Program-made: the position numbers and the translations under genes
Notes under the pieces: generated by a model
The model's input: only the letters and a program-made list of their open reading frames with translations
Database searches by the model: none
Told to the model about the DNA's origin: nothing
Shown here: piece after piece, positions 775 to 33,687 of the stretch
Position numbering within the stretch: position 1 is the stretch's first letter
How the letters are laid out: each line of letters starts with the position of its first letter
Assembly: GCA_019634125.1 (NCBI GenBank)
Contig: JAHQVX010000068.1
Coordinates: forward strand, 1-35,084
DNA length: 35,084 nucleotides
DNA from: Saprospiraceae bacterium
Lineage (GTDB): Bacteria; Bacteroidota; Bacteroidia; Chitinophagales; JAHQVX01
Reading direction: 5' to 3'

Positions 775-1956
775 ATGAAGCGTATGTCAGCAAATGACAC
801 ATTTATCTTGGAGCATGTTCCAGCAGAACTTCATCCAATAGCACATAAAGTAGCTCGTGGAGAGCGAATAACTGCCGAGGAAGGCATCAAATTGTTTGAA
901 TTAGGTGAAGTTGCTTTTCTTGGCCAATTAGCCGATTTCATTCGAACGCAACGCCACGGAGACACCACCTATTTCAATAAGAACTTTCACGTAGAACCAA
1001 CAAATCTTTGTGTTTTCGACTGTAAGTTTTGTGCGTACTCGCGTTTGCTTCGCGAAAAAGGCGATTTACAAGCCTGGGAAATGAGTGCAGAAGATATTAT
1101 TGAGACAGTAAAGAGCTATGATAAGGCTGAAGTAACAGAAGTGCATATCGTTGGGGGAGTACATCCGAAAATGGGACTGCATTATTTCGCTGATTTAATT
1201 CGATCTATTAAAGCTGAACGCCCCGACATACATGTTAAAGCTTTTACTGCGGTAGAATTAGAATACATGTGCCGTAAGGCAAAGCTGAGTTATAAAGAAG
1301 GTTTGGAGGTCTTGAAAGCAGCCGGGCAAGATTCCTTGCCCGGAGGTGGGGCAGAGATCTTCCATGATGAAATTCGAGATCAAATTTGCAAGGATAAATG
1401 CTCGGCCGACCAATGGCTAGAAATTCACGAAACAGCACATGAACTCGGCATGCCTTCCAATGCTACCATGCTCTACGGCCATATCGAAGCGTATAAGCAT
1501 CGAATCCATCATATGGAGGCATTGCGCAACCTGCAAGACAAAACCAATAAGTTCAATGCCTTCATTCCATTGAAATATCGAAGTGGAAATAATCAAATGA
1601 GCGACGTTGGCGAAGTCAGTGTTATTGAAGATATTAAAATGTACGCTGTAGCCCGGATTTTTATGGATAATTTCCCACACATCAAAGCATACTGGCCAAT
1701 GATTGGAAGGGATACGGCTCAACTTTTACTCAAATTCGGCGTAAACGACATCGATGGAACCATAGATGACACTACGAAGATTTATTCTATGGCTGGAGCC
1801 GAAGAACAAAGTCCAAAAATGAGCACCTACGATATCGTTAAACTCATTAAATCCGTAGGGAAGCGTCCGGTAGAACGTGATTCTGTTTACAATGAATTGA
1901 AAGACTATTCGGACGTAGAATTTGAAGAAGCGCCCACCGTAAAATCCTATAACTAA
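775..1956 (+). CDS. mqnE: Aminofutalosine synthase MqnE (radical SAM)
   Basis: Radical-SAM CxxxCxxC motif (NLCVFDCKFCAYSR), HIVGGVHP, SLPGGGAEIF; directly followed by mqnA. Confidence 0.92.
   Translation: MKRMSANDTFILEHVPAELHPIAHKVARGERITAEEGIKLFELGEVAFLGQLADFIRTQRHGDTTYFNKNFHVEPTNLCVFDCKFCAYSRLLREKGDLQAWEMSAEDIIETVKSYDKAEVTEVHIVGGVHPKMGLHYFADLIRSIKAERPDIHVKAFTAVELEYMCRKAKLSYKEGLEVLKAAGQDSLPGGGAEIFHDEIRDQICKDKCSADQWLEIHETAHELGMPSNATMLYGHIEAYKHRIHHMEALRNLQDKTNKFNAFIPLKYRSGNNQMSDVGEVSVIEDIKMYAVARIFMDNFPHIKAYWPMIGRDTAQLLLKFGVNDIDGTIDDTTKIYSMAGAEEQSPKMSTYDIVKLIKSVGKRPVERDSVYNELKDYSDVEFEEAPTVKSYN
1322..1343. repeat. In-CDS hairpin, 9-bp perfect stem, 4-nt loop (mqnE)
   Basis: ccgggcaag-attc-cttgcccgg. 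Confidence 0.9.
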
Positions 1957-2723
1957 TGCCGGATCTACGCCTTTCTATGGTGTCGTATATTAATGCGAAG
2001 CCGTTCCAACTTGGTCTGGAACAAAGCGGTTTGATCAATGAGATTGAATTGCTCTTAGAAGTTCCATCGGAAAGTGCGCGAAAACTCCAGGAAAGGGAAG
2101 TTGATATTGCCTTAGTTCCCGCAGCTTCGCTGCGGGAAATACCGAGTGCGGAAATCATCACCAATTTTTGTATCGGTGCCGATGGGGAAGTAGCCTCCGT
2201 AGGACTTTTTGCAGAACTACCCGTCGAGGAATTGACGCATATTTATCTCGATTATCAATCAAGAACTTCGGTGCAGCTGCTGAAAATCTTACTCCATGAA
2301 TATTGGCAGAAGGATGTCACGTTTTTAAAGGCTTATCCTGGTTATGAAAACGATATTAAAGGCACAAAGGGAGGTTTAATTATTGGAGATCGAGCTATCC
2401 AGCAAAAAGGAGATTTTCAATTTAATTACGATTTATCTGCGTACTGGAAAGCACATACTGAGTTGCCTTTTGTATTCGCGGTTTGGGTCGCAAACCAATC
2501 GATTGATACAACATTCGAAAAACGCCTCGAAGAGGCGTTTAAATTAGGGATGACTCAAAAAGAACGTGTGATTGACTTCTATCGAAAAGAATACGAACAG
2601 TATTTAGATGTTGAACACTATTTCCAAGAAAATATAGAATATCAACTCAATCCAGAAAAACTCCGCGCCCTCGATCTATTTCTGCTCAAAATCAATCAGT
2701 TAGAAAGCCGCTCTATAGCGTAA
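1956..2723 (+). CDS. mqnA: Chorismate dehydratase MqnA (menaquinone futalosine pathway)
   Basis: N-terminus LRLSMVSYINAKPFQLGL and DIALVPAASLREIP typical of MqnA; overlaps the mqnE stop by one base. Confidence 0.9.
   Translation: MPDLRLSMVSYINAKPFQLGLEQSGLINEIELLLEVPSESARKLQEREVDIALVPAASLREIPSAEIITNFCIGADGEVASVGLFAELPVEELTHIYLDYQSRTSVQLLKILLHEYWQKDVTFLKAYPGYENDIKGTKGGLIIGDRAIQQKGDFQFNYDLSAYWKAHTELPFVFAVWVANQSIDTTFEKRLEEAFKLGMTQKERVIDFYRKEYEQYLDVEHYFQENIEYQLNPEKLRALDLFLLKINQLESRSIA
2116..2138. repeat. In-CDS hairpin, 10-bp perfect stem, 3-nt loop (mqnA)
   Basis: ttcccgcagc-ttc-gctgcgggaa. Confidence 0.93.
2520..2540. repeat. In-CDS hairpin, 9-bp perfect stem, 3-nt loop (mqnA)
   Basis: aaacgcctc-gaa-gaggcgttt. 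Confidence 0.9.
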
Positions 2724-3594: not shown

Positions 3595-3613
3595 GATTTG
3601 AATTTTTGACAAA

Positions 3614-3621
3614 TAGTTTTG
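3614..3621 (+). promoter_or_regulatory. Bacteroidota-type -7 box TAGTTTTG (TAnnTTTG) upstream of the lipoprotein gene
   Basis: Exact match to the Bacteroidota -7 consensus TAnnTTTG, 33 nt before the ATG at 3655. Confidence 0.45.
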
Positions 3622-3654
3622 TAAATTTAAGCACCCCTTCGAAACAAAGTACTT

Positions 3655-4692: not shown

Positions 4693-4697
4693 AAATA

Positions 4698-4733: not shown

Positions 4734-4740
4734 ATCTTTG
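4733..4740 (+). promoter_or_regulatory. -7 box TATCTTTG (TAnnTTTG) for the blaI-like gene, abutting the operator
   Basis: Exact consensus match; TTG at 4712-4714 sits at roughly -33 spacing inside the inverted repeat. Confidence 0.6.
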
Positions 4741-7870: not shown

Positions 7871-7899
7871 AAACCCCCTCGGCAAAGCCGAGGGGGTTT
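7871..7899. terminator. Bidirectional intrinsic terminator
   Basis: aaaccccctcggc-aaa-gccgagggggttt: perfect 13-bp stem with A and T tracts, between convergent genes. Confidence 0.93.
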
Positions 7900-7940: not shown

Positions 7941-10397
7941 CTAAAATCCAAGCCCAGGCTGACGCTCTTGGCGCTCTTCTCTACGTTGCTGCTTACGCTT
8001 CGCAGGCTGTTTCATCTGCCCAAAATTGTAGTTAAATCCAATAAAGCCCATCTGACTCGGCCAGTCTAATACTAAGTTTTGAGCTTGTGAATCATCCTCA
8101 AATTCTACTTCTAAACCAAATGTGTTAAACAGATCATTTACCCGAATGTAAGAATTCAACTTCCCTTTCATAAATGATTTACGCACGTTCATATCCACAC
8201 CATACATCGCACTCAAACGGCCTTGGTAATAAGCGAACGGACTTTGATAATTACTTGAAACTTGTCCGCCCCAACCCTTAGGGAAATTCATATTAGCCAT
8301 GATACGACCACTGAAAATACTTGTACTTGCATTTAAGACTTCACCATCTTCATCTTCAGGATTTTGGATTTCTCCATAGTTGTAATTACCAGACACCATC
8401 AGGTTTAACCAGTTTGCTGGGTTAAAGTTGAACGAAGATTCCATTCCATAAACGTTCAATTGATTTACATTTCTGAAAGAAATTGTGGAACCTCCATCTG
8501 CTCGTACAGTATCTCGGAAATAACGAATATGGTCTGTAATTCCTCGATGGTAAACACTCGCATCAACACTCATTTTATCGAAGAACTTCGAATACCCGAA
8601 TTCATAAGAGTCCGTGAATTCTGGGCGAAGTGTATTATTTCCTTCAAACAGGTTATTTAAATCGGTTCGGTCTGCAAAAGGCGTAAGTTGTTGCCCGTTC
8701 GGACGATTAATCCGACGGCTATAACTCAAGCGCATGTTCGCCGACTCCGACAACGTATAACTAGCAGTAGCACTAGGGAACAAACTAATATAGGTGTCGG
8801 TATATTCATTGTTGGCTCCAAGCTCATTCTCTACCTCACTGTCTACATCAGTAAATTCGGAACGAAGTCCCCCTTTTAAACCTAATTTCTCAAAATTCTT
8901 CTCGTAAGTCACATAAGCTGCGGCTACGTCTTGAGTAAAATTGAATAAGTCATCAGAATTGAAGGCTGCGTCATCTTGAAAGACCTGAAAACGTTGTTCT
9001 TGATCTTCTAGCACCGCTCTAAAGCCCAATTCTAATTTTTCTTTACCAGAAAAAGGATTGGTATAGTCTAATGATAGGGTAGTCGTATTCCGATCATTGT
9101 CAGTAATGTCTGTATCGAACGAATTGAAAATCAACTCTAAGGGATCAAAAAACACATTACTGCGATTATTTGTCGTTTGCTCTTCACCTACATTGTAGGC
9201 TGCATCTAATAATAAATTGTGCTTCGGATTCCCATCAAATTCTTTTTGAAGTCCTAATGTTACCTCGCCGCCAGTTCTATCGTTAAATCCATCATTGAAA
9301 CGATTATAATTCGTCACGCCTTCCACAGGTGCGAAAAAGACATTGTCGTTAGCTGTAAGCGACACATTCTCTCCATCGCCAGGATTCAACGAAGCAGAGA
9401 AAAACACCGTACTACTCTCATTCAGGTAGTGATCAATTCCAATTCGAGCAAATTGCCCTTTACGATAAAAATCTCTATCCTCATCAGATATTTGATCTAC
9501 GCCAATTGCATTGATAAAGTCGTTGCGCTGGTTATCCCTTAGGAAATCATCTTCAAACCGGTTCAGGTTGAAACTAGAGCTTAGATTCCACTTCTTGGTT
9601 TTTAAATTTAAGCCCACATTTCCGTTGTATTTGTTCTCTGTTCCCCAGTTTGCGCCAACATTTCCTGTAAATCCTTCGATGTCGTTTTCTTTCAAAACAA
9701 TATTGATAATACCGGCTTCTCCTTCTGCATCATACTTTGCGGAAGGATTGGTAATGATTTCAATGTCTTGAATGTTTTTTTGCGGGATTTGTTCGAGCAA
9801 GGTCTGTAGACTAAAGCTTGAAGGACGTCCATTAATTAAAACACGTACATTCTGGCTGCCCCGAAGCTGAATATTTCCTTGGTCATCTACTGTAACAGAA
9901 GGGATTTGTTGCAATACATCTTTTGCGTTACCTCCTTCTGCAGCTTTGATTTGAGAGGCATCGTATATCTTCTTATCCACTTCATAGCGTACAGGGGCTG
10001 CAGCACCTTCTATCGTTACATCTTCAATTTGTGCTGCGCTGGCCGATAAAGTAATAGAGCCGATATTGTGCTTAACGGTTTCTTGTGGGTTGAAAATGAT
10101 TGGTCCTCGTATTTGCTTTTCATAGCCAATAAACGAGATTTCCGCAAAGTGACCACCAAGTGGAATTTCATTGACGGAAAACGTCCCATCATCTAAAGAA
10201 AGTCCACCAGTCACAACTGTAGAATCTTTGGCATTTCGAATCGTAATAGTTGCATAAGCAATCGGCTCATTCGTTGCTTCATCAACCACACTTCCTTCGA
10301 GTATTCCAATTTTAGGAGGCCCACCAGCTCCAGGGTATTGCGCAAAAGCACCTACAAAGAAAAATAGGGCTAGTGTTAGGGTTATTAGTTTTTGCAT
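7941..10397 (-). CDS. TonB-dependent outer membrane receptor (carboxypeptidase-regulatory-like domain + plug + beta-barrel)
   Basis: Signal peptide MQKLITLTLALFFFVGAFAQ; GSVVDEATNEPIAYATITI; plug DVLQQIPSVTVDDQGNIQLRGSQNVRVLINGRP...IEIITNPSAKYDAEGEAGIINIVLK. ATG at 10397 preferred over 10439. Confidence 0.92.
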   Translation of the reverse strand: MQKLITLTLALFFFVGAFAQYPGAGGPPKIGILEGSVVDEATNEPIAYATITIRNAKDSTVVTGGLSLDDGTFSVNEIPLGGHFAEISFIGYEKQIRGPIIFNPQETVKHNIGSITLSASAAQIEDVTIEGAAAPVRYEVDKKIYDASQIKAAEGGNAKDVLQQIPSVTVDDQGNIQLRGSQNVRVLINGRPSSFSLQTLLEQIPQKNIQDIEIITNPSAKYDAEGEAGIINIVLKENDIEGFTGNVGANWGTENKYNGNVGLNLKTKKWNLSSSFNLNRFEDDFLRDNQRNDFINAIGVDQISDEDRDFYRKGQFARIGIDHYLNESSTVFFSASLNPGDGENVSLTANDNVFFAPVEGVTNYNRFNDGFNDRTGGEVTLGLQKEFDGNPKHNLLLDAAYNVGEEQTTNNRSNVFFDPLELIFNSFDTDITDNDRNTTTLSLDYTNPFSGKEKLELGFRAVLEDQEQRFQVFQDDAAFNSDDLFNFTQDVAAAYVTYEKNFEKLGLKGGLRSEFTDVDSEVENELGANNEYTDTYISLFPSATASYTLSESANMRLSYSRRINRPNGQQLTPFADRTDLNNLFEGNNTLRPEFTDSYEFGYSKFFDKMSVDASVYHRGITDHIRYFRDTVRADGGSTISFRNVNQLNVYGMESSFNFNPANWLNLMVSGNYNYGEIQNPEDEDGEVLNASTSIFSGRIMANMNFPKGWGGQVSSNYQSPFAYYQGRLSAMYGVDMNVRKSFMKGKLNSYIRVNDLFNTFGLEVEFEDDSQAQNLVLDWPSQMGFIGFNYNFGQMKQPAKRKQQRREERQERQPGLGF

Positions 10398-10502
10398 GCT
10401 GATTGTGTTTTTGTAAAAGTTCGTTTTTGGTATATGCAAATAGACCCAGTTGAGGAAAATAAGTTACACTAAAAACAGAATTTTTCTAAAATGGAAATTT
10501 AT

Positions 10503-11099
10503 TCATATCCATTCTTTGAAGCGGGATTGAACAAGTGCTTCATCGGATTTTGGGAAGGATATTTCGAAGTATGCATGCGTGGAAGAAAAACGTTCAGAAA
10601 GTAGGGTTATCGGCAATTTGTTGGCCTGCTGGTGAAAAACATTAACTTTATCGTAAGGCAGTTTTAATTCGATAGAAGATTGAATGATTTTCGTGACAAT
10701 TTCAGCAGCGTCAAGGCTGAGGTTAGTAGTGAGTTTATACGCTTTGATGAGTCCTGGTATTCCAAGTTTTGTACCTCCAAAATAACGTACGACAACAACT
10801 AAAATATTGGTAAGTTGGGCCGAATCGATTTGATTGAGTATAGGCCTTCCGGCGGAGCCGGAAGGCTCACCCGCATCGTTCACCCGATAAAGGTTTTTAT
10901 CTAAACCCAATCGCCATGCATAACAATGATGACGAGCCTTTGGATGTAATTCATTGACCTCTACCAATGCTTCTTTAATAGCTGCTTCCGAATCCACGGG
11001 GAAGGCATAACCATAAAACTTACTGGCCTTCACCGTATACCGATCGGTACTTGGAGCTGCAATTGTATTGTAACTATATAGCGACATTAACTTGTTCAA
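10503..11099 (-). CDS. IMPACT/YigZ (UPF0029) family protein
   Basis: VKASKFYGYAFPV, NDAGEPSGSAGRPILNQID, VVVRYFGGTKLGIPGLIKAYK are hallmark YigZ motifs. Confidence 0.92.
   Translation of the reverse strand: MNKLMSLYSYNTIAAPSTDRYTVKASKFYGYAFPVDSEAAIKEALVEVNELHPKARHHCYAWRLGLDKNLYRVNDAGEPSGSAGRPILNQIDSAQLTNILVVVVRYFGGTKLGIPGLIKAYKLTTNLSLDAAEIVTKIIQSSIELKLPYDKVNVFHQQANKLPITLLSERFSSTHAYFEISFPKSDEALVQSRFKEWI
10844..10866. repeat. In-CDS hairpin, 10-bp perfect stem, 3-nt loop (yigZ-like)
   Basis: gccttccggc-gga-gccggaaggc. Confidence 0.93.
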
Positions 11100-11961
11100 A
11101 AATCAATAAGAAAATAGCGAGGATAGATAAACCTAAACCAACTAATTTCAAGGATGTAGTCCGTTCCCGAAAGAAGGCAAAACCTAAAATGGTGGTCAAA
11201 AGCACAATGCCAATGTTATTGACGGGATAAATCATCGAACTTTCCCAACCATCGACATCTAAGGTTTTAAATAAATAATAAATCGAACCATAATTCGGAA
11301 TACCTAGTGCAATTCCCGCCAACCAGCTTTTAGGGGATGGCTTCATTTTTCCTCTTATCCATTGAATGAGAAACACAAAGATGCCTATGCCTGCGGCGGT
11401 AGCAAACAAGAACGCCAGAAATTGGTTAAACTCAAGGCCTGGGAAGCGAAATTCTACTTCTTTTAATAAGCTACTGATCACCCCCCCGCCAATAAATACG
11501 GCAATTGGTAACCATCTAGGCCCTTTGTTGGTCGTTTTGTCCGTTGATTTTGGCTGAGCTACGCTCAGCCAAACAGCAACAATCGCCAACACAATACCAC
11601 TAACTTTCAATAACGTAACCTGATCGCCATAGAATAGAAAAGCAATAAATACAGGAACAACCAACGACAACTTATCACTTAATGAAGCAATGCCTACTCC
11701 AAAAACCTGAGCGGTTCTGCCAATTAGGTTAAACAACGTAATAAACAAAAGTCCTAGAATCAACGCATAGGGTAGAGTAGTCGTGGGAATTTCACTCAAC
11801 CAACCTCTATCTTGTTGTGCAGCAAAACCCGCACCCATACCGGCACAAATCAAGTAATTCACCACAATAGCTTGAAATGTATTCACCTTATACGTGTCAA
11901 ATCCCTTGAAAATGATGTAAATCAAGGAGGATAAACCGATGGTCAAAATTAAATAGATCAT
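11074..11961 (-). CDS. EamA/DMT family transporter
   Basis: About ten hydrophobic helices in two similar halves; VVPVFIAFLFYGDQVTLLKVSGIVLAIVAVWL and FFRERTTSLKLVGLGLSILAIFLL. Confidence 0.85.
   Translation of the reverse strand: MIYLILTIGLSSLIYIIFKGFDTYKVNTFQAIVVNYLICAGMGAGFAAQQDRGWLSEIPTTTLPYALILGLLFITLFNLIGRTAQVFGVGIASLSDKLSLVVPVFIAFLFYGDQVTLLKVSGIVLAIVAVWLSVAQPKSTDKTTNKGPRWLPIAVFIGGGVISSLLKEVEFRFPGLEFNQFLAFLFATAAGIGIFVFLIQWIRGKMKPSPKSWLAGIALGIPNYGSIYYLFKTLDVDGWESSMIYPVNNIGIVLLTTILGFAFFRERTTSLKLVGLGLSILAIFLLIFEQVNVAI
11549..11573. repeat. In-CDS hairpin, 11-bp perfect stem, 3-nt loop (EamA transporter)
   Basis: tttggctgagc-tac-gctcagccaaa. Confidence 0.93.
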
Positions 11962-14576: not shown

Positions 14577-14618
14577 GGTTTCACTGAAATGCTTAATTTG
14601 GTAAAAATATTATTTCAA

Positions 14619-16628
14619 ATGGTAAAACAAGTTACTTTCTTCATTTGTTCGCTCCTCTCGATGTCTCTTATGGCGCAAGACTCCGGCAAAGGCTGGGTCG
14701 TTACTGCCGAAAACATCCAACCAAATGAGTACTACGGAGAAACCGTTGCTAATGGCATGGTTGGCCTCATTAGTAGTCCAGAACCTATGAAAGTTAAAGA
14801 TGTGGTACTCAATGGTGTTTTCGACCAATACGGACGGGGAAGAGTAGAAAATATCCTAAAAGTATTTAACCATATCAATCTCGACATCTTCGTAGATAAT
14901 AAGTTGGCGAATGGACAAAATATTTCCAACTTCGAACAACGCCTCGATTTGCGGAAAGCTGTATTGATCACCGAATTTGATTTTGAAGGTGTGCATGTCG
15001 TGCACAAAATGCGATCGCTAAGGCATTTACCTTTTAACCAGCTGGTTGAAGTCGAGTTAAAAGCATCTAAGCCGGTTTCTGTTCGTATTCAAAACAAACT
15101 TGAGACACCAGATCATTTACGGGATAATCGAATGTTTTTTAACGAGATTTCTCGGCCTCACGTCGACATTACCCTCATGACTAGTGTGGCACAGAGTCCT
15201 ACTGGCCGCCACAAAGTGGCGGCCACATCCTCCTTCCTATTCGAAGAAAAACATGGCTATGAACCACGGATTCGCCACGAAGAATGGGATGAAGGCATGC
15301 ACTACCAGCACTTTACAAAGAAACTGAGTCCAACAGCTACTTATCGATTTGGACTAGCAGGTACTTCCATTGCAAGTGAACATGTAGATGATCCTCATAA
15401 CGAAGCTGAACGCATGGCACTTTACGCCAAATTAGAAGGTATGGACCGGCTAATAAAGTTCCACGACGAAGCTTGGGATACACTTTGGGAAGGAGATATT
15501 GTCATTGAAGGCAACGACAAAGATCAACTCGATGTTCGTTCTGCACTTTACCATCTATACAGTTTTGTGCGCGCAGGAAGTGGTTACAGTATGTCGCCAA
15601 TGGGCCTTAGCGGCTTAGGGTACAATGGCCATGTCTTTTGGGATACCGAAATCTGGATGTACCCACCATTACTCGTGCTTCAACCCGAAATTGCAAGGTC
15701 GCTGTTAGATTATCGGTTTAATCGGCTAGATGCCGCGATGACAAATGCCAAGATGCACGGATACGATGGGGCAATGTTCCCCTGGGAAAGCGCAGATACA
15801 GGCTCGGAACAAACTCCAGTATGGGCAATCACAGGGCCCTTCGAACACCACATTACTGGAGATATTGCTTGGGCGGCTTGGCAATACTTCTCTGTAACCA
15901 ACGATATGCAATGGTTAGAAGAGAAAGGCTACCCGTTATTAAAAGCCACGGCAGATTATTGGGCAAGTAGAGTAGAACGAAATGGCCCAGGTCAATACAA
16001 CATCAAAAACGTTGTCTGTGCCGATGAATATGCCGAGAATGTAGACGACAACGCCTTTACAAATGCGGGAGCAATTCTGAACCTTGAATATGCTACCAAA
16101 GCGGCTAACTTACTCGGAAAAGCACCAAATCCAGATTGGATGCATGTGGCCGAAAACATTCCAATTCTAAAGTTTAATGGCGGAGTTATTCAAGAACATG
16201 CCACTTATGAAGGGGAAACCATCAAACAGGCTGATGTCAACCTCTTGGCCCATCCGTTTTACTTTGTGACCGATAAAACGCAAATTAAACGCGATTTAGA
16301 CTATTATGAACCTCGTTATGATGAATTTGGACCTGCCATGGGTTTTTGCACATTAGCGACCCTTCATGCCCAACTCGATAATGAGAAACGGGCTTATCAA
16401 TTATGGACACAAAGCTTTCGGCCGAATTTTGTTCCACCGTTTAATGTAATTAGTGAGACGAAAGGTGGGACAAATCCCTATTTTTCTACTGGAGCTGGTG
16501 GAATGCTTCAAACCGTTTTATGGGGTTTTGGCGGTGTGCGCGTTACTGAGGATGGAATTGTAGTGACGGAACAAAAGAAGCCAAATGAATGGAAAAGCTT
16601 AGAAATTAAAGGATTAGCGGTTAGATAG
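14619..16628 (+). CDS. Exported glycoside hydrolase family 65-like protein
   Basis: Signal peptide MVKQVTFFICSLLSMSLMAQ; GHVFWDTEIWMYPPLLVLQPEIARSLLDYRFNRLDAAMTNAKMHGYDGAMFPWES; VVCADEYAENVDDNAFTNAGAI. ATG 14619 preferred over 14589. Confidence 0.85.
   Translation: MVKQVTFFICSLLSMSLMAQDSGKGWVVTAENIQPNEYYGETVANGMVGLISSPEPMKVKDVVLNGVFDQYGRGRVENILKVFNHINLDIFVDNKLANGQNISNFEQRLDLRKAVLITEFDFEGVHVVHKMRSLRHLPFNQLVEVELKASKPVSVRIQNKLETPDHLRDNRMFFNEISRPHVDITLMTSVAQSPTGRHKVAATSSFLFEEKHGYEPRIRHEEWDEGMHYQHFTKKLSPTATYRFGLAGTSIASEHVDDPHNEAERMALYAKLEGMDRLIKFHDEAWDTLWEGDIVIEGNDKDQLDVRSALYHLYSFVRAGSGYSMSPMGLSGLGYNGHVFWDTEIWMYPPLLVLQPEIARSLLDYRFNRLDAAMTNAKMHGYDGAMFPWESADTGSEQTPVWAITGPFEHHITGDIAWAAWQYFSVTNDMQWLEEKGYPLLKATADYWASRVERNGPGQYNIKNVVCADEYAENVDDNAFTNAGAILNLEYATKAANLLGKAPNPDWMHVAENIPILKFNGGVIQEHATYEGETIKQADVNLLAHPFYFVTDKTQIKRDLDYYEPRYDEFGPAMGFCTLATLHAQLDNEKRAYQLWTQSFRPNFVPPFNVISETKGGTNPYFSTGAGGMLQTVLWGFGGVRVTEDGIVVTEQKKPNEWKSLEIKGLAVR
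15203..15225. repeat. In-CDS hairpin, 10-bp perfect stem, 3-nt loop (GH65-like)
   Basis: tggccgccac-aaa-gtggcggcca. Confidence 0.93.
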
Positions 16629-16634
16629 AACAAA

Positions 16635-16660
16635 AAACCTCCCCCGTCCGGGGGAGGTTT
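16635..16660. terminator. Intrinsic terminator between convergent GH65-like and YegP genes
   Basis: aaacctccccc-gtcc-gggggaggttt: perfect 11-bp stem with flanking A/T tracts. Confidence 0.9.
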
Positions 16661-17125: not shown

Positions 17126-17140
17126 TGAAAATTTTTGTCG

Positions 17141-17548
17141 ATGAAGAAGATGCAAATCATAGCCATAATTGCTGTAGCACTCTGCTTAGCGGTAATTGTA
17201 GCGCTTGTATCAGACGTGGAAGAATACAAAACATTTGCTGCTGCGCAGCAAATGCCTGATGGCAAAACCTCTACCATAGTAGGGGAGCTCACCCATCCAG
17301 ATCAAGTCATTTATAACCCCCAACAAAACCCCAATCTTACAGTCTTCTATATGACAGACAAAGAAGGCGGTCAAATGAAAGTAAAGTACTTCGAACCTAA
17401 ACCGAGAGATTTTGAAAAATCAGATCAGGTCACGATTACTGGTAAGGTTGTAGGGGATGAGTTTCACGCTTCTAGACTTTTAATGAAATGCCCATCGAAG
17501 TATGTTGAAGATGAGGAATTTGACACCGCCGTAGAAACCATTTCTTAA
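17141..17548 (+). CDS. ccmE: Cytochrome c maturation heme chaperone CcmE, CXXXY variant
   Basis: N-terminal TM anchor, OB-fold-like region (VTITGKVVGDEFHASRLLMKCPSKYVED), immediately upstream of ccmF. Confidence 0.85.
   Translation: MKKMQIIAIIAVALCLAVIVALVSDVEEYKTFAAAQQMPDGKTSTIVGELTHPDQVIYNPQQNPNLTVFYMTDKEGGQMKVKYFEPKPRDFEKSDQVTITGKVVGDEFHASRLLMKCPSKYVEDEEFDTAVETIS
17232..17254. repeat. In-CDS hairpin, 10-bp perfect stem, 3-nt loop (ccmE)
   Basis: catttgctgc-tgc-gcagcaaatg. Confidence 0.92.
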
Positions 17549-20105: not shown

Positions 20106-20885
20106 ATGGATTTTTCAGAGGTAAATGTCGTCCTAATTGGTGCGGGAAATGTTGCTACACAGTTGGGCATTGCCCTGCGTTCCGCAGGGCTCAACATCCG
20201 CCAAGTCTATAGTCGTACAACAGAAAAAGCAGAGGCCCTTGCCGAGCAGCTCAGCTGCGAAGCCATCAACGACCTTCAAGACATTCACCAGGATGCTGCC
20301 TTGTATATCCTCGCTGTCTCTGATGGTGCCATTGAATCTGTGTTGAATCAATTGCCTAATTTAAATGGGGTGATTGCACATACCTCTGGCGTGACTTCCC
20401 ATACCGTAGTTGCCGAACATGGATTTACTGGCGGGTATTTCTACCCATTACAAACCTTTGTAGCGGATGAAGCTATGGACATGACTACGTGCCCCATTTT
20501 CGTGAAAGCTAATGAAGCAGCTGCGGAGCAGCTGCTTCTAAAAGTGGCGCAAAAGATATCTAACAACGTTAAAGTCATCTCCGATGAGCAGAAAAAACAC
20601 CTCCATCTTTCAGCAGTCATCGTCAACAATTTTGTGAATCATCTCTATGCCTTGACTACGGATATGCTAAGGAATGAACACCTCGATTTCACGGATCTAG
20701 AACCCATTATCGAAAGCACTATACAACGTGCACTTGCGAATGAGCCGAAATCCATTCAAACTGGACCTGCTCGACGAAACGATACAACAACTATTGAAGA
20801 ACACTTGGCGATGCTAAAGCATCAGCCATTACTCCGAAAAGTCTATAAGTGCTTATCCAAGAGTATAATAAAGTACTATGAATAA
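20106..20885 (+). CDS. Rossmann-fold + DUF2520 domain protein
   Basis: VVLIGAGNVATQLGIALRSAGLNIRQVYSRT; HTSGVTSHTVV..GGYFYPLQTF; HLSAVIVNNFVNHLYALT. Confidence 0.88.
   Translation: MDFSEVNVVLIGAGNVATQLGIALRSAGLNIRQVYSRTTEKAEALAEQLSCEAINDLQDIHQDAALYILAVSDGAIESVLNQLPNLNGVIAHTSGVTSHTVVAEHGFTGGYFYPLQTFVADEAMDMTTCPIFVKANEAAAEQLLLKVAQKISNNVKVISDEQKKHLHLSAVIVNNFVNHLYALTTDMLRNEHLDFTDLEPIIESTIQRALANEPKSIQTGPARRNDTTTIEEHLAMLKHQPLLRKVYKCLSKSIIKYYE
20172..20190. repeat. In-CDS hairpin, 8-bp perfect stem, 3-nt loop (DUF2520 gene)
   Basis: gccctgcg-ttc-cgcagggc. Confidence 0.85.
20514..20538. repeat. In-CDS hairpin, 11-bp perfect stem, 3-nt loop (DUF2520 gene)
   Basis: gaagcagctgc-gga-gcagctgcttc. Confidence 0.93.
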
Positions 20886-21438
20886 GGAAATACCTATAAA
20901 CCCTTGGAAAACGAAAACTAGTCGCGTAGCCTTCGAAAACCCCTGGATTCGTGTTCAAGATGAACTGGCCATGGGTCCAGGGAACCATGAATTCACCTAT
21001 GGTGTCGTACAGTTTAAAAATCTAGCCATTGGAATCTTGCCTGTTAATGAAGCGGGCTATACATGGTTAGTAGGGCAGTGGCGGTATCCGTTGAATAGGT
21101 TTAGCTGGGAAATTCCGGAAGGAGGTTGTTTAATGGATAAGGAATCTCCTTTAGAAGCTGCGAAGCGGGAACTGAAAGAAGAAACGGGAATAATTGCCGA
21201 GCAGTATACTACGTTGTTAGAATTAGATTTATCGAATTCAGTGACCGATGAGCGCGCTTTGGTTTACGTGGCGACATCGCTCACTTTCGAAGAAAGTGAG
21301 CCCGACCCCTCAGAAGAGATTGTCGTTAAAAAAATCCATATCGATCAAGCTTTGCAAATGGTCCTAGATGGCACCATTACCGATGCCATTTCTGTGGCAG
21401 CAATATTGAAATACAAAACGATTCAGCATCAACTATGA
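20878..21438 (+). CDS. NUDIX hydrolase (ADP-ribose pyrophosphatase-like)
   Basis: Nudix box GGCLMDKESPLEAAKRELKEETGI; 8-nt overlap with the preceding gene. Confidence 0.92.
   Translation: MNKEIPINPWKTKTSRVAFENPWIRVQDELAMGPGNHEFTYGVVQFKNLAIGILPVNEAGYTWLVGQWRYPLNRFSWEIPEGGCLMDKESPLEAAKRELKEETGIIAEQYTTLLELDLSNSVTDERALVYVATSLTFEESEPDPSEEIVVKKIHIDQALQMVLDGTITDAISVAAILKYKTIQHQL
21279..21301. repeat. In-CDS hairpin, 10-bp perfect stem, 3-nt loop (NUDIX)
   Basis: gctcactttc-gaa-gaaagtgagc. Confidence 0.92.
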
Positions 21439-23133: not shown

Positions 23134-24015
23134 TCAAACTAATTTCAATTTTTTGGCAGTTGTTTTCGAGCAAAGTAAAAAATTGACTTGTTCGCTTTTT
23201 GTAAGGCGTTTAGAAGGGGTAACCGTTTTTTTGCGCTCATTAATATTGAAATAGAGATAGTTGCAACGTTCAAATAAGGGCGTAAGTCGCTCTGCGATAG
23301 CCTCTGTCATGATTTCAATAAAAATAGTAGGCTGGTGTTCCTCTAGGTATTTGCCATATCCTAACAAGACCTCTACTTCATGGCCTTCTGCATCTATTTT
23401 GAGTAAATCAATTTTTGAAAGTTGAGTCTGTTCTACAAAATCATCTAATCGAATGGTCTCAATTTCAGTAGAACGAACGAGTTGAAGTTGTTTGGAAGAA
23501 GTAGAATCCAATGTTGCCGAATAAGAGTGATTAATAGCTTCTTCAAAAATCTGTTGTTGGCCAGTACGGTTAGATAATGCTTTTTTTATGCAATGAATGG
23601 GGTAGTTGTTTATAGTCACATTTTTTTTCAGCTTGTCAAAAACGCGGGGTATTGGTTCGAACGCATAAACCTTACAACTTTGTTGTAAGGTTTGAGTCAA
23701 CAAACTATAAACTCCAGTATTTGCTCCAATATCCACCACAACTTCAGCATCTTCACACAACTTCGCCCACAACGCTAAAGATTGGCCCTCCCAGCTATTG
23801 AAAATGCCCTTCCAAAAAATCTCCGTTTCAATATATAAAGCATGACTTCGAATTTTAAATGCTTGATTTTCTTGAACAGGAACAGTAAATACCGCATCAA
23901 AAGTGAGGTAAGGATAAAAGGAAGACGAGGGAGCCCCAAAAACCTTTATACCTTCGTATAGGTTTTTTTTGAAAGGAATAAGTTGATAGATCGACTTTAA
24001 TGTTTTTTTAAGCAC
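23134..24015 (-). CDS. FkbM family methyltransferase
   Basis: VVDIGANTGVYSLLTQTL, VYAFEPIPRVFDKLKKN, IDLLKIDAEGHEVEVLLG. Confidence 0.92.
   Translation of the reverse strand: MLKKTLKSIYQLIPFKKNLYEGIKVFGAPSSSFYPYLTFDAVFTVPVQENQAFKIRSHALYIETEIFWKGIFNSWEGQSLALWAKLCEDAEVVVDIGANTGVYSLLTQTLQQSCKVYAFEPIPRVFDKLKKNVTINNYPIHCIKKALSNRTGQQQIFEEAINHSYSATLDSTSSKQLQLVRSTEIETIRLDDFVEQTQLSKIDLLKIDAEGHEVEVLLGYGKYLEEHQPTIFIEIMTEAIAERLTPLFERCNYLYFNINERKKTVTPSKRLTKSEQVNFLLCSKTTAKKLKLV
23667..23693. repeat. In-CDS hairpin, 12-bp perfect stem, 3-nt loop (FkbM methyltransferase)
   Basis: aaaccttacaac-ttt-gttgtaaggttt. Confidence 0.94.
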
Positions 24016-26112: not shown

Positions 26113-28425
26113 ATGGCTAAAAATTTATTGATCGTAGAGTCTCCTGCAAAAGCGAAAACCATTGAGAAGATCTTAGGGAAGGATTTTGTTGTAAAATCGA
26201 GCTTTGGCCATGTGCGTGATTTGGCGAAAAAAGACATGGGAATTGATGTAGAAGGCAACTACACCCCGAACTATGAAATTTCTGCGGATAAGAAGAAAGT
26301 GGTGTCTGAATTAAAGAAGCTAGCTAAAGATGCTGAAGTCTGGTTAGCGACGGATGAGGATCGGGAAGGAGAGGCTATTTCTTGGCATTTACTAGAGGTG
26401 TTGAATCTAGATCCGGCCACAACGAAGCGAATTGTTTTTCATGAAATCACCCCAACAGCTATCAAGAAAGCTGTTGCGAATCCAAGAACGGTGAACATTG
26501 ATTTAGTGAATGCCCAGCAAGCACGACGAATTTTAGATCGTTTAGTTGGTTTTGAGTTATCGCCTTTGCTTTGGAAGAAGATCAGTATGCGAAATAGTTT
26601 ATCGGCTGGTCGTGTACAGAGTGTCGCTGTTCGCTTATTGGTAGAACGTGAACGTGAGATTATTGGCTTTGACCCGCAAGCGTATTTTAAAGTGACGGCA
26701 GAGTTTGATGTAGATGGAACGACATTAAAAGCGGATTTAGGGAAGCGTTTCGATACAGAAGCTGAGGCGACAAGCTTTTTAGAAGCCTGCGCAAGCGCAG
26801 GCTTTTCGGTCAAAGACATCCAAGTAAAACCCTCGAAAAGAAAACCAGCTCCACCATTTACCACATCTACACTTCAGCAGGAAGCCAGTAGAAAGCTCGG
26901 TTACTCCGTAGCTCGAACCATGAGCGTAGCCCAACGCCTCTACGAGAATGGACATATTACCTATATGCGTACCGATTCTGTAAATCTGTCCGACTTGGCA
27001 TTAAATACCGCCAAGAAAGTCATTACTGAAGAATATGGTGCTGAATATTCAAAAACTCGAAAGTACACCACAAAAAAAGCTGGTGCACAAGAAGCCCACG
27101 AAGCCATTCGACCAACGTACATCAACAATATAACAATTGAAGCAGAACGCGACCAACAACGCCTTTATGAGCTCATCTGGAAACGCACGGTTGCCTCACA
27201 AATGGCGGAAGCTGAATTAGAAAAAACCACCATTAAAATCGATGTTTCGAACCGAGACGAAGATTTTTCTGCCAATGGCGAAGTCATCAAATTTGATGGT
27301 TTCCTAAAGTTATACATCGTTTCAAAAGACGAAGAGGACACAGAAGACGATAACACACAAGGATTACTTCCTCCTGTAAGCATAGGTCAAACATTGGGCT
27401 TGTTAACAGCTAGTGGCTTCCAAAAATTCACCAACCCGCCTTACCGTTTCACAGAAGCTAGTCTGGTGAAGAAATTAGAAGAATTAGGTATTGGCCGTCC
27501 TTCTACCTATGCTCCAACCATTAACACGATTCAAAAACGGGGTTATGTGGTGAAGGAAAATAGAGACGGACAAAAGCGTAAGGCTATTCAGTTACACCTC
27601 AATAACGGCCAAGTAGAAAGAAGTGAGCCGCTTGAAACGTTTGGAACAGAGCGTAATAAGTTATTTCCAACCGATTTAGGCATGGTTGTTACCGACTTTT
27701 TAAAGCAGCACTTCACCAATATCATGGACTATAGCTTCACGGCGAATATTGAGGCGCAATTCGATAAGATTGCAGACGGGGAGAAAGAATGGGTGGCTAC
27801 AGTAGACAACTTCTACAAGCCGTTTCATGAAAAGCTGAAAGACACTGAAGCCACAGCCGAGCGAGCCACCGGCGAGCGGGTTTTAGGCACTGACCCAGAT
27901 TCTGGAAGAGAGGTCTTGGTTCGGATTGGTAAATTTGGACCGATGGTCCAAATTGGTCGCGTCGATGAAGAAGAAAAACCACGTTTTGCCAGCCTACTTC
28001 CCGATCAACATCTAGAGACCATTACCTTCGAAGAAGCCATGGAACTCTTTAAACTCCCGAGAGTACTTGGGAAATCTGATAAAGGAGAAGACATTAAAGC
28101 AAATATTGGCCGATATGGACCTTATGTGCAATTGGGGAAAACTTTCGCCTCGATTCCTGAAGATAAAAATCCACATTCCATTACCTTAGAAGAAGCAGTA
28201 GTGCTGATTAAAGACAAATTAGAAGCTGCCGCTAAAAACACTATAGCCTCCTTTAACGAAGGAGAAATTCAAATTCTGAATGGACGCTATGGCCCTTACA
28301 TTAAACAAGGGAAACGCAACTTCAAAATTCCAAAGGACAGAAAACCAGAGGAGTTAACCTTAGAAGATTGCCAGGAAATTATAGAAAACGCTCCACCGCC
28401 AAGACGAGGCAGAGGACGCAAATAA
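26113..28425 (+). CDS. topA: DNA topoisomerase I
   Basis: NLLIVESPAKAKTIEKILG; WLATDEDREGEAISWHL; SAGRVQSVAVRLLVERE; HITYMRTDSVNLS; repeated C-terminal GRYGPYVQLGK units. Confidence 0.97.
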   Translation: MAKNLLIVESPAKAKTIEKILGKDFVVKSSFGHVRDLAKKDMGIDVEGNYTPNYEISADKKKVVSELKKLAKDAEVWLATDEDREGEAISWHLLEVLNLDPATTKRIVFHEITPTAIKKAVANPRTVNIDLVNAQQARRILDRLVGFELSPLLWKKISMRNSLSAGRVQSVAVRLLVEREREIIGFDPQAYFKVTAEFDVDGTTLKADLGKRFDTEAEATSFLEACASAGFSVKDIQVKPSKRKPAPPFTTSTLQQEASRKLGYSVARTMSVAQRLYENGHITYMRTDSVNLSDLALNTAKKVITEEYGAEYSKTRKYTTKKAGAQEAHEAIRPTYINNITIEAERDQQRLYELIWKRTVASQMAEAELEKTTIKIDVSNRDEDFSANGEVIKFDGFLKLYIVSKDEEDTEDDNTQGLLPPVSIGQTLGLLTASGFQKFTNPPYRFTEASLVKKLEELGIGRPSTYAPTINTIQKRGYVVKENRDGQKRKAIQLHLNNGQVERSEPLETFGTERNKLFPTDLGMVVTDFLKQHFTNIMDYSFTANIEAQFDKIADGEKEWVATVDNFYKPFHEKLKDTEATAERATGERVLGTDPDSGREVLVRIGKFGPMVQIGRVDEEEKPRFASLLPDQHLETITFEEAMELFKLPRVLGKSDKGEDIKANIGRYGPYVQLGKTFASIPEDKNPHSITLEEAVVLIKDKLEAAAKNTIASFNEGEIQILNGRYGPYIKQGKRNFKIPKDRKPEELTLEDCQEIIENAPPPRRGRGRK
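26783..26804. repeat. In-CDS hairpin, 10-bp inverted repeat with 2-nt centre (or 9 bp + 4-nt loop) (topA)
   Basis: aagcctgcgc-aa-gcgcaggctt. Confidence 0.92.
27932..27954. repeat. In-CDS hairpin, 10-bp perfect stem, 3-nt loop (topA)
   Basis: aatttggacc-gat-ggtccaaatt. Confidence 0.88.
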
Positions 28426-29689: not shown

Positions 29690-30009
29690 AAGACTTGTTT
29701 GAGGACAAAATGAAAAAATTGACCAAAAGGCAAGGCCGGATTTTAGTTCGCTTGATCAATCGAGAGATGGAAGAAGACACGGTGTATGACTTAATAAAAG
29801 AGTATAAGAACGGTGTAAATGCAAGAATGTGGCAAATTGTAGCCAAGAAATACGATTCCGATCTGAAAGCAGAATACGATCCGGACAATCCAGATAGTGA
29901 AGACTACGATATTGAGTTGATTGTGGAAGAAATAGAGAAGAGCTATAAGACAGCATTTTCAGACGATATTGTTGTTGACCCACCTACTTACAGAGACCTT
30001 CAACCATGA
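29686..30009 (+). CDS. DUF4294 protein, C-terminal half, in the -1 frame relative to the preceding ORF
   Basis: LFEDKMKKLTKRQGRILVRLINREMEEDTVYDLIKEYKNGVNARMWQIVAKKYDSDLKAEYDP matches the C-terminal signature of DUF4294 (KLTxxQGrlLikLIdRe...YdLIKe.rg...a.fwQ..a..fg..LK..YDP). Confidence 0.75.
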   Translation: MKDLFEDKMKKLTKRQGRILVRLINREMEEDTVYDLIKEYKNGVNARMWQIVAKKYDSDLKAEYDPDNPDSEDYDIELIVEEIEKSYKTAFSDDIVVDPPTYRDLQP

Positions 30010-30722: not shown

Positions 30723-30743
30723 GCTTCTTTTTACTTTTCCTGT

Positions 30744-31130
30744 ATGAAACGATCTCATACAGATTTTGCATTGCTTATCCTCCGAATTGGATTCGGTGTG
30801 TTAATGCTTGTAGGGCATGGTTTGCCAAAACTGAAGAAATTGATAAATGGTGACTTTAGGTTTCCTAAAGTGTTTGGAATGCCCGATTGGTTGGGTTTAA
30901 GTCTAGCTACTTTTTCAGAATTTCTTTGCGCGGCTTTGGTCATTTTAGGAGTAAAAACACGTTTAGCTACAGTTCCATTGATCATAACCATGTTGATAGC
31001 AGCCTTTGTGATACATGGTTCGGATGGCTGGTTTGGTTCGCCCAGTAAAGAATTAGCACTACTTTATTTATTTCCTTTCTTAGCGCTTTTCTTCTCTGGG
31101 CCAGGAAAGTATTCAATTGATAAAATGTAA
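30744..31130 (+). CDS. DoxX family membrane protein
   Basis: LLILRIGFGVLMLVGHGLPKL; SEFLCAALVILGVKTRLATVPLIITM; four predicted helices. Confidence 0.87.
   Translation: MKRSHTDFALLILRIGFGVLMLVGHGLPKLKKLINGDFRFPKVFGMPDWLGLSLATFSEFLCAALVILGVKTRLATVPLIITMLIAAFVIHGSDGWFGSPSKELALLYLFPFLALFFSGPGKYSIDKM
30853..30871. repeat. In-CDS hairpin, 8-bp perfect stem, 3-nt loop (doxX)
   Basis: actttagg-ttt-cctaaagt. Confidence 0.8.
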
Positions 31131-31973
31131 TCAGGCCTTTTCTAGAATTAGAATGTCCTGGAAGTAGATACCTGGATAGTTTTTCCAAGAACCTGGGTAA
31201 TATTGATTGATTTGAAACCCAGCTCCATTGATCCACTGAAAGAGAACAGTCTTAGGAATAGCAATCGCTTTTTCGGGAATATCTGCCCATTCTGTGGTTT
31301 TCCAGTGTGCTGACTCATAAGCGTTTTTGGGAAATAACCAACGCCCTTCGGGCGTTGGAACACGACGATTCACACCACCTTGAGCTTCAAATGAAGCATA
31401 GTGTTCATCCAAAACGAAAAATGTAAGCACTGCTTTGGCACCAGGTCGAAGTACTCGATGCACTTCATCCAAATAATAGCGAGCATCTGCCTCATTAAAA
31501 TGGGTCCAAACCGAGAGCGCAGTAACGACATCATAGGCTGCATCTTCAACCGGCCAAATAGGGCGTTGATCACCTTGTTCATTGTAATACGCATTTGAAG
31601 CATCGATGTGGTAGAAACTTGTATTTCTCGGATCGAAATGCGCTTTGCAAAATTCAATCTGAGCCCGATCCACATCAATTCCAGAATAACTTCCACCGTC
31701 TTCGATCAATGACTCTGCAGCTAAGCCTAGAATTCCAGAACCACAGCCCACATCAAGAATGGCAACATCTTCCGCTTCCACTTGTTGATGAAGAATCGTT
31801 TGGAATATGCCGATTACATAAGCCCAATCGGCATAGGATACTTTTCCACCAAGCCGTTGTTTTAAGTACGGAATTCTCCGGATGTTATTCGCTTTGCCAG
31901 TGTAGGAACGGTCCACTCGCACAAATACTCGATCGAGCAATTGATATATCCATAGTTTGACGCGGGCAATCAT
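31131..31973 (-). CDS. Class I SAM-dependent methyltransferase
   Basis: VAILDVGCGSGILGLAAESL; YDVVTALSVWTHFNEADARYYLDEVHRVLRPGAKAVLTFF. ATG 31973 forms an ATGA overlap with the GT2 stop. Confidence 0.9.
   Translation of the reverse strand: MIARVKLWIYQLLDRVFVRVDRSYTGKANNIRRIPYLKQRLGGKVSYADWAYVIGIFQTILHQQVEAEDVAILDVGCGSGILGLAAESLIEDGGSYSGIDVDRAQIEFCKAHFDPRNTSFYHIDASNAYYNEQGDQRPIWPVEDAAYDVVTALSVWTHFNEADARYYLDEVHRVLRPGAKAVLTFFVLDEHYASFEAQGGVNRRVPTPEGRWLFPKNAYESAHWKTTEWADIPEKAIAIPKTVLFQWINGAGFQINQYYPGSWKNYPGIYFQDILILEKA
31338..31358. repeat. In-CDS hairpin, 9-bp perfect stem, 3-nt loop (methyltransferase)
   Basis: ccaacgccc-ttc-gggcgttgg. Confidence 0.92.
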
Positions 31974-32905
31974 GGCAATAAATCTCTTAAAATTTCCTTG
32001 GATAATCGCAACCGAACATAGGTTTTGAAATTGGAGACTAAGAACACCAGACGTAGAATCCAAGAAGAATTAGAAAGTCGACCTAGGCAAAAAGCCCTGA
32101 AAGACCCAATTAATGTTTTGTCTTCTGCTGTTGCACCAACCAACTCAGCAAGCTGAGTTTGCAAATCAGCCCAGTCAACAAAAGACTGTATGTAATTCGT
32201 TCGATTTCGTTTCACAGCACCAATCCCTTGCTTTGTGGTGTCAATTCCCACTTGCTGGCCACTATGTACTCGATAGGTCATTAATGACTTCGATGTAAAG
32301 GCAGTAGTGACTGTTGGATCTAAAATTGCCAGCAAATGGAGCTGGCTATCGTGCAAAATATTATCAGACAATTCAGTTGTAGGAAAAGGATAGTAACGTT
32401 CGAAGAAATCCTTCCGAAGGGCAGCTGTAGCCCCAGTAACCATATTCTTTTGGGTTAACGATGTAAGCAAGCGTTCATGATTGTAATAACGTTGAATTCT
32501 GAACGGAAAGTGAATATCGAAGAGCGATTGGGAAGCATTGCTCAATTCAGCGTTGGTAAAGGTAAAGGCTACGTTGTCGCCTTGAAATAGTTGGAGTTGT
32601 TCTTCGATTTTATTTGGTTTCCAAACATCATCTTGGTCGGCTAGGAAAACAATTTGCCCAGAACAGGCATGAATCGTCTCGAAGAAATTCGCTTTCACCC
32701 CTAAACGACGGGAATGTTGGATGAGCGTAACTGGGAAAGACGCATTCGCTTGAAAAGCTTGAATAATCGATATGGTGTTATCGGTAGATCCGTCGTCTCC
32801 AATGATGAGCTCATCGGGCAAGATACTTTGCTGGGCAATACTCTGTAGTTGCTCCTTCAGGAAGGCAGCCCCATTGTACGTACATAACGCTACAGAAACT
32901 TTCAT
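31970..32905 (-). CDS. Glycosyltransferase family 2
   Basis: VSVALCTYNGAAFLKEQLQSIAQQSILPDELIIGDDGSTDNT; IVFLADQDDVWKPNKI. Confidence 0.93.
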   Translation of the reverse strand: MKVSVALCTYNGAAFLKEQLQSIAQQSILPDELIIGDDGSTDNTISIIQAFQANASFPVTLIQHSRRLGVKANFFETIHACSGQIVFLADQDDVWKPNKIEEQLQLFQGDNVAFTFTNAELSNASQSLFDIHFPFRIQRYYNHERLLTSLTQKNMVTGATAALRKDFFERYYPFPTTELSDNILHDSQLHLLAILDPTVTTAFTSKSLMTYRVHSGQQVGIDTTKQGIGAVKRNRTNYIQSFVDWADLQTQLAELVGATAEDKTLIGSFRAFCLGRLSNSSWILRLVFLVSNFKTYVRLRLSKEILRDLLP

Positions 32906-33687
32906 TGCTCAAGTGATCTTTTAGACAGTTCTTTTAGCTGGTTGTAAACATCGATGGTTTGTTGTTGCAACGGGATGGTGAGGGGCTTTAATGCCGTAGA
33001 AGTGAATAATGAATCATCTTTAACTTCTTGAATTGGAACGGCGTTCAGGTCAAAGCCCCAGCGGTTGAGGATGTTGAGCCCAAGCGGAGCTTGGGCTTCT
33101 AATTCCGCCAACTCCAAAATTACGCTCCGTTCAGGCCGAGCAGATGCATATTCCAAAAGCTGTTTGTTGTAAAATACATACGCCTTTTCAAAGCGCTTCA
33201 ACCATTTAAAGCGCATGGCATTCCACTTCAAGGTCTTCAGCAAGCCACTACGATGCATCATATACTCTTCGCGCTTCTCTAATGAAGCAATTACCTGTTT
33301 GGGATGTCGAAAAATAAATATTGAATACGCATCAGGCAATACGTTTGCCCAAAGCTGATTTAAGAACAAACAAGTTCGAGGATCTTTAAAACCAGCAACC
33401 GACTTAGCCACATATTTCGAAGCTAATAAAGCTTGAAGTTCCGATTCATCGCTTTCATCAACGGGTACTTCTGCTGATTTAGGAAACACATGAATGCCTT
33501 TCCGCAGCATTAAATCTTGCTGAAAGCGCATAATATCCTCATCTTCAAAATGCCCACGCGCATTCGAAAAGTTGCCCGGCAACAACTGATCTCCTACATC
33601 TAAACCACAACGCTGCAGCCAACCCGCTAGGAGCGAGGTTCCAGAGCGATGCATGCCACTAATGATTAGTAATCGCGTATTATTCAT
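32902..33687 (-). CDS. Sulfotransferase family protein
   Basis: 5'-PSB-like loop LLIISGMHRSGTSLLAGWLQRCGLDVG; GHFEDEDIMRFQQDLM; IFIFRHPKQVIASLEKRE. Confidence 0.88.
   Translation of the reverse strand: MNNTRLLIISGMHRSGTSLLAGWLQRCGLDVGDQLLPGNFSNARGHFEDEDIMRFQQDLMLRKGIHVFPKSAEVPVDESDESELQALLASKYVAKSVAGFKDPRTCLFLNQLWANVLPDAYSIFIFRHPKQVIASLEKREEYMMHRSGLLKTLKWNAMRFKWLKRFEKAYVFYNKQLLEYASARPERSVILELAELEAQAPLGLNILNRWGFDLNAVPIQEVKDDSLFTSTALKPLTIPLQQQTIDVYNQLKELSKRSLEQ
33077..33097. repeat. In-CDS hairpin, 9-bp perfect stem, 3-nt loop (sulfotransferase)
   Basis: agcccaagc-gga-gcttgggct. Confidence 0.92.

Follow-up and report, generated by a model that had tools for sequence, protein, structure and literature searches.

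The 35,084-nucleotide (nt) window analyzed here (contig C55 of a metagenome-assembled genome) carries open reading frames (ORFs) whose products range from radical SAM and menaquinone biosynthesis proteins to topoisomerase I and a sulfotransferase-like protein. Short, perfect DNA hairpins are scattered inside these ORFs. A first-pass annotation had listed 14 perfect inverted repeats together with three examples with arms of 8 base pairs (bp), all within genes; an exhaustive scan combined with ORF calls recovered each of them at the same coordinates and inside an ORF. When synonymous codons were permuted within the window's own ORFs of 150 amino acids or more, 30 shuffles gave a mean of 0.67 and a maximum of 2 hairpins with arms of at least 9 bp and loops of 2 to 4 nt, whereas 13 are present. 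The observation is confirmed as real, and it was understated.

The source genome comprises 2.20 Mb in 146 contigs, is 83% complete, and has Chitinophagales-like Bacteroidota as its closest named matches. We analyzed 141 pieces of this one incomplete genome (1.865 of 2.204 Mb, window included), with ORFs called mechanically, for a total of 1.73 Mb of coding sequence. They contain 777 perfect stems with arms of at least 9 bp, approximately one per 2.2 kb of coding DNA, of which 453, 169, 66, 62, and 27 have loops of 3, 2, 4, 0, and 1 nt, respectively. The excess over chance is roughly 20- to 50-fold; genome-wide counts equal to shuffled controls had been named in advance as the outcome that would undo the pattern, and the counts lie far above the shuffles. 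Within the first 1.26 Mb of coding sequence, stems with a 3-nt loop and arms of 9, 10, 11, and 12 bp number 119, 116, 58, and 26, against expectations of 4.0, 1.3, 0.3, and 0.3. In the same portion, about 120 stems have a 2-nt loop and arms of at least 9 bp (4.4 expected), 53 have a 4-nt loop (5.3 expected), and 34 are loopless with arms of at least 11 bp (0 expected), while loops of 5 to 9 nt show no clear excess over shuffles. The excess is limited to loops of 0 to 4 nt and a total length of ~20 to 28 nt, peaks at a 3-nt loop with arms of 9 to 10 bp, and ends at ~13 bp.

The favored loops are GAA/TTC, AAA/TTT, and GGA/TCC, closed by a C-G pair. These preferences match those of stable DNA mini-hairpins, among which d(GCGAAGC) is extraordinarily stable (PMC10527192). 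Stem GC content falls with arm length, from 64% at 9 bp to 48% at 12 bp. The number of genes with zero, one, two, and successively more stems (775, 298, 99, 20, and 2) follows the Poisson expectation (772, 313, 84, 20, and 4), and placement shows no clear trend with gene conservation. The stems have no sequence in common, which bears out the initial statement that they are not a copied family. REP/BIME or RAYT-linked palindromes are disfavored by the lack of a shared stem sequence, by the location in genes, and by Y1_Tnp genes that are not specific to this genome; sequence-defined chromosome signals (DNA uptake sequences, Chi, and KOPS) by the lack of a motif in stems or flanks; and intrinsic terminators by the depletion of T and TTTT 3′ of the stems and by their spread along genes.

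Table 1. Perfect hairpins of the 35,084-nt window, with two terminator-like hairpins as contrast cases.
Position	Form	Arms (bp)	Loop	Location	Remark
1322-1343	perfect hairpin	9	4 nt	ORF 775-1956, radical SAM, CofH/MqnC-type	
2116-2138	perfect hairpin	10	TTC	ORF 1956-2723, menaquinone biosynthesis	matched also by covariance model
2520-2540	perfect hairpin	9	GAA	ORF 1956-2723, menaquinone biosynthesis	
10844-10866	perfect hairpin	10	GGA	ORF 10503-11099 (-), UPF0029	
11549-11573	perfect hairpin	11	TAC	ORF 11074-11961 (-), EamA transporter	skew switch on both sides
15203-15225	perfect hairpin	10	AAA	ORF 14589-16628, GH65	gap-free ortholog alignment
17232-17254	perfect hairpin	10	CTG	ORF 17135-17548, 137 amino acids	
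20172-20190	perfect hairpin	8	TTC	ORF 20106-20885, DUF2520	flank switch strong
20514-20538	perfect hairpin	11	GGA	ORF 20106-20885, DUF2520	
21279-21301	perfect hairpin	10	GAA	ORF 20878-21438, NUDIX	skew switch on both sides
23667-23693	perfect hairpin	12	TTT	ORF 23134-24015 (-), FkbM methyltransferase	
26783-26804	perfect hairpin	10	AA	ORF 26113-28425, topoisomerase I	
27932-27954	perfect hairpin	10	GAT	ORF 26113-28425, topoisomerase I	conserved FGPMVQIG stretch
30853-30871	perfect hairpin	8		ORF 30744-31130, 128 amino acids	without flank switch
31338-31358	perfect hairpin	9	TTC	ORF 31131-32063 (-), 310 amino acids, methyltransferase	
32142-32159	perfect hairpin	8	AA	ORF 31970-32905 (-)	
33077-33097	perfect hairpin	9	GGA	ORF 32902-33687 (-), sulfotransferase-like	strongest flank switch of the window
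7871-7899	terminator-like hairpin, same form	13	AAA	between ORFs	contrast case
16635-16660	terminator-like hairpin, same form	12	2 nt	directly 3′ of GH65 stop codon	contrast case

The intragenic location reported for this hairpin form stands for every listed stem but is not exclusive, as the same form occurs outside ORFs at 7871-7899 and 16635-16660. Terminator-like stems of this genome, such as those at 7871-7899 and L039:13548-13586, are bidirectional, with an A-rich 5′ end and a T-rich 3′ end, and often have arms of 12 to 19 bp and AAA/TTT loops. Within the window, the FGPMVQIG stretch encoded at 27932-27954 matches its ortholog in 7 of 8 residues, and the 8-bp stem at 30853-30871 is possibly a chance match.

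No comparable genome was found among about 450 Bacteroidota surveyed with a covariance model. The model, which represents the C-GAA-G class, has 62 matches in this genome; no other genome exceeds 3 matches among 59 of the order or 2 among 395 from elsewhere in the phylum. Based on one loop class and strict filters, the survey would reveal a genome of this sort but would miss a mild excess. Loci of 80 named relatives (1.29 Mb of coding sequence) contain 29 stems compared with 34 in shuffles, and thus no excess; these relatives all lie outside the genus and family, at no more than about 60 to 67% identity. A search for closer relatives among 399 genomes of the order, as well as plasmids and viral contigs, found none. 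A search of the open-access literature found no bacterial chromosome described with such a pattern. In a survey from 2026 that covered 118,019 genomes, the perfect inverted repeats of bacteria are reported to be mostly intergenic, with 4-bp spacers (PMC13155455), a pattern opposite to that of the coding stems described here.

Judged from codon-level comparisons, the stems appear to be built by synonymous choice. Among 53 stems with an ortholog, the gap frequency is 0.15, equal to that of neighboring windows, and protein identity is 0.40 at the stems versus about 0.39 in the flanks. Per million codons, this genome has 4801 sites, and relatives 4789, at which a 9-bp stem around a codon loop could be written silently (standard error about 140, estimated from the counts; one codon phase tested). 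Silent construction is suggested because the frequency of feasible sites is as in relatives and stem identity equals that of the flanks; the limit from feasible sites is loose, in that two standard errors leave room for a protein change behind as many as about 65% of these stems. Such sites are realized in 9.3% of cases here and 0.14% in relatives; among the feasible sites here that allow a C-G closing pair and have E, F, K, G, S, or V as loop residue, the share is 31%. Because orthologs reveal no excess of gaps and the stems have no sequence in common, an origin by insertion of mobile hairpins is rejected. Rickettsia-type palindromic elements likewise do not fit, as there is no extra peptide and gaps are as frequent as in neighboring windows. 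The stem at L227:3097-3117 is accounted for by an Ala-Gly-rich motif, KAAAGGGGKG (biotin-carboxylase-like by eye).

The average stem is the center of a dyad-symmetric switch in third-codon-position composition, G-rich on the 5′ side and C-rich on the 3′ side. Within 30 nt, C/(C+T) at downstream third positions is 0.62 versus 0.42 genome-wide, and G/(G+A) at upstream third positions is 0.53 versus 0.40. The switch fades over about 1 kb, passes gene borders, and keeps the sense of the DNA strand in neighboring genes of opposite orientation. It is seen in every loop class, including loopless palindromes, and in both loop orientations; it starts at arms of 7 to 8 bp with a 3-nt loop, where the excess also starts, and not at shorter arms. 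It is absent at 82 chance stems with loops of 5 to 9 nt, is slight at single-mismatch stems, and takes a weaker form at intergenic terminator-like stems. Fourfold sites shift chiefly from A to G in the 5′ flank and from T to C in the 3′ flank (direction estimated from frequencies), and GC content is raised in both flanks.

At 63% of hairpins, the switch is positive on both sides. Within the window, the hairpins at 11549, 21279, and 33077 show it clearly, and others show it weakly or not at all; because individual hairpins vary in this way, it is a population signal. A motif search in the flanks returned composition only. Pairing of the flanks into a larger cruciform is rejected, with real flank pairs scoring −13.43 and swapped pairs −13.51. 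A mixture of one-sided effects set by replication direction is not supported as the whole story, as left and right effects are positively correlated; contigs do differ in the right–left balance of the effect. Between two hairpins at L159:10957-11003, a run of six differences from L190 falls within 47 nt (five T/C and one A/G); L190 has C or G at all six, the bases of the flank signature.

Perfect stems stand apart from nearly perfect ones. They number 211 against 2.0 expected, whereas stems with one mismatch at inner positions 0 to 5 are near background (51 versus 32). At silently feasible sites, perfect stems number 251 versus 4.8 expected, those with one mismatch 68 versus 50, and those with two mismatches 167 versus 230; after rescaling, sites with three or more mismatches are near expectation, the two-mismatch class is depleted (ratio 0.80), and the one-mismatch class is not (ratio 1.5). 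Among decayed stems, transversion-type mismatches are slightly more common, on very small numbers. Overlapping contig ends, apparently strain alleles, and paralogs provide two loop inversions. At L159:11021-11041, just 3′ of a stop codon, the GAA/TTC loop is flipped relative to L190, with intact arms in alleles that are 96% identical. In L210, two tandem paralogs that are 67% identical share the same 10-bp arms but have TTC at 9946-9968 and GAA at 10414-10436. Arm bases do not differ in the few coding-gene allele and paralog hairpins seen.

The interpretation we favor, to which we give an even chance of being correct, is that coding DNA palindromes are perfected by recurrent template switching and filtered to silent sites. 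Stems of 9 to 12 bp with loops of the C-GNA-G or C-AAA-G type would form stable single-strand DNA hairpins. During replication or gap filling at such a stem, the nascent strand would jump to the opposite arm as template and copy one arm onto the other, so that existing stems stay perfect and near-palindromes become new perfect stems; sometimes the switch would also invert the loop. Purifying selection would retain mainly protein-neutral outcomes, and stems would build up where they can be written silently. The rate of the process in this lineage would have to be far above that in relatives, through changed replication or repair. Repeated stalling and resynthesis toward the hairpin from both sides might leave the mirrored 1-kb footprint, an origin of the composition switch that we propose tentatively. 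Template switching with a purifying filter explains why the stems are perfect, why imperfect ones are scarce, why loops flip, and why stable loops are favored.

The two loop inversions with intact arms match template switching as traced in coding genes of yeast, where arms are 10 to 11 bp, spacers 2 to 5 nt, and the flips gaa/ttc, gga/tcc, and aa/tt; among Saccharomyces cerevisiae strains, 10 genes show spacer inversion and 68 genes show arm changes (PMC8604942). Both systems share arm size, spacer sequences, perfect stems within genes, and GAA↔TTC (E↔F) inversions; the present one differs in being bacterial, in its 777 stems in 1.73 Mb, and in its kilobase-scale composition switch. Perfect short arms with short spacers occur here above chance, and loops invert with arms unchanged in the two cases seen. 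For coding palindromes in mitochondria of Nematomorpha, Mikhailov et al. inferred repeat conversion from a “binary” signature of perfect and imperfect repeats (PMC6649704), a signature that the near-background counts of inner-mismatch stems reproduce here. Those palindromes are also perfect without an excess of imperfect ones in conserved coding sequence, keep the protein, prefer a codon phase, and are taxonomically patchy. They are mitochondrial and reach 284 bp, with arms of tens to hundreds of bp, whereas ours have arms of 9 to 13 bp (~13 bp at most in genes), stable tiny loops, flank signatures, and a chromosome-wide distribution. In RNA genes, template switching also creates perfect stems in one step and keeps them perfect, stable loops promote it, and loops invert (PMC8794818); that class is under RNA selection, in contrast to the mRNA-borne stems here, which show no evidence of it. 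Imperfect inverted repeats at Escherichia coli quasipalindrome hotspots mutate by template switching as well (PMC7202029), in reporter studies as opposed to a genome-wide population of perfect stems.

Several results weigh against this interpretation. A strong mutational process should damage proteins, yet feasible sites and stem identity are unremarkable, within the loose limits given above. The loop residues of the in-frame class are conserved like neighboring residues, and loop flips were not seen as a source of protein change. The loop inversions are two cases only, one of which directly follows a stop codon, and the few strain alleles come from contig-end overlaps without reads. Template switching, one of the initial hypotheses, gains from these inversions, from the two-mismatch depletion, and from the lack of inserted peptides and gaps, but one-mismatch sites are not depleted as well. 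SbcD (above the family cutoff) and ExoVII were not found in this genome; they were also not found in many hairpin-free relatives, so that the absence of hairpin or 3′ exonucleases is rejected as the cause. MutS is present, and none of SbcD, ExoVII, MutS, and Y1 transposase sets this genome apart. By itself, template switching does not explain the restriction to this lineage or the composition switch.

The main rival, possible although we consider it less probable, is a selected or driven DNA signal that is defined by shape, as a hairpin or cruciform, and starts a two-sided process. Chi sites, DNA uptake sequences, and KOPS-type signals are dense, dispersed, and strongly over-represented inside genes; they are defined by sequence, whereas only shape is common here. 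A shape signal would have a density like that of Chi sites or DNA uptake sequences, with synonymous changes building and keeping the stems, and its two-sided process could be break and resection, recombination, priming, or uptake, of which the 1-kb step would be the footprint. It performs about as well as template switching in accounting for a placement that is silent, Poisson, and threshold-like: stems are spread over genes without a clear conservation trend, arm length trades against GC content as for a stability threshold, and a uniform advantage of perfect stems predicts mismatched classes near neutral, roughly as seen. The two-sidedness of the switch at most hairpins, its absence from chance hairpins, and the unchanged arms of alleles and paralogs are also in its favor. 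However, selection alone yields neither three-base loop inversions nor two-mismatch depletion, and no candidate recognizer emerged; expansion of HUH/Y1 transposases is rejected, as Y1 transposases are equally common in hairpin-free relatives. The initial proposal of a DNA-level mark, through cruciforms or protein binding, is strengthened by the dyad-symmetric switch but lacks both a recognizer and a flank motif. Its fullest form, in which a perfect hairpin of ~21 to 27 nt, free in sequence but with a tiny, stable loop, recurs silently about every 2.2 kb and seeds a ~1-kb two-sided process that imprints the strand-specific switch across the chromosome, is somewhat doubtful.

Selection of mRNA hairpins for pausing, stability, polarity, or attenuation is unlikely, and this initial hypothesis was not borne out. 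On the coding strand, the GAA:TTC ratio of loops is 29:30 in the first 0.51 Mb and 73:56 in 1.26 Mb, and GGA/TCC and most other loop types are near-equal on coding and template strands. G.T mismatches, which would be G.U pairs in mRNA, are not enriched (19 versus 30 expected). Because loop types are almost balanced between the strands and the stems do not tolerate G.U pairs, they do not seem to be mRNA-driven; moreover, loopless palindromes bear the same flank signature, and the signature follows the DNA strand into opposite genes. The sole asymmetric loop type is AAA/TTT (coding-strand ratio 42:21). Stems are nearly missing from the initial 30 nt of ORFs (3 versus 16 expected) and are in excess 30 to 90 nt from the start codon (58 versus 32 expected), which implies that an mRNA fold has some cost or use.

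Recurrent double-strand breaks at cruciforms, made by a structure-specific nuclease and followed by two-sided resection, would turn the stems into break or conversion hotspots and the composition step into a record of single-strand damage on 3′ tails. The G/T-rich 5′ and A/C-rich 3′ flanks would fit 3′-ended strands that are often single stranded, and GC content is raised on both sides; still, stems that caused frequent breaks across so many sites should be selected against, and no nuclease was identified, SbcD above the family cutoff included, which makes this an improbable explanation. An assembly or library artifact, a concern with a metagenome-assembled genome at 83% completeness, is very improbable given that frames and ortholog alignment are kept, overlapping allele contigs share stems, and flank signatures extend over kilobases.

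Two other kinds of inverted repeat occur in this genome. A separate family, sequence-defined and unlike the coding hairpins, has conserved arms CTATGGACT..AGTCCATAG and a variant, CTACGGACT..AGTCCGTAG. Its sites (L016:4404-4423, L016:5225-5244, L028:11234-11253, L168:3611-3630, L205:13072-13228, and L048:3861-3880) are apparently mostly intergenic, in places as tandem units of about 100 bp. A perfect 120-bp palindrome (L152:9762-9881; 60-bp arms, loopless) lies at a contig end and is either genuine or a fold-back from assembly.

This genome offers a natural experiment, at the scale of a chromosome, in the formation of DNA hairpins, the upkeep of their perfection, and the marks that they leave around them. 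Should template switching be the cause, the lineage has a replication or repair change that raises switching far above the level of other bacteria, and identifying that change would reveal a factor that normally keeps switching in check. Stems that act as a signal would be a class of chromosome element invisible to motif searches. Either way, other genomes can be searched for the mirrored composition switch as a footprint, and the silent placement of the stems shows the extent to which DNA structure can shape codon choice.

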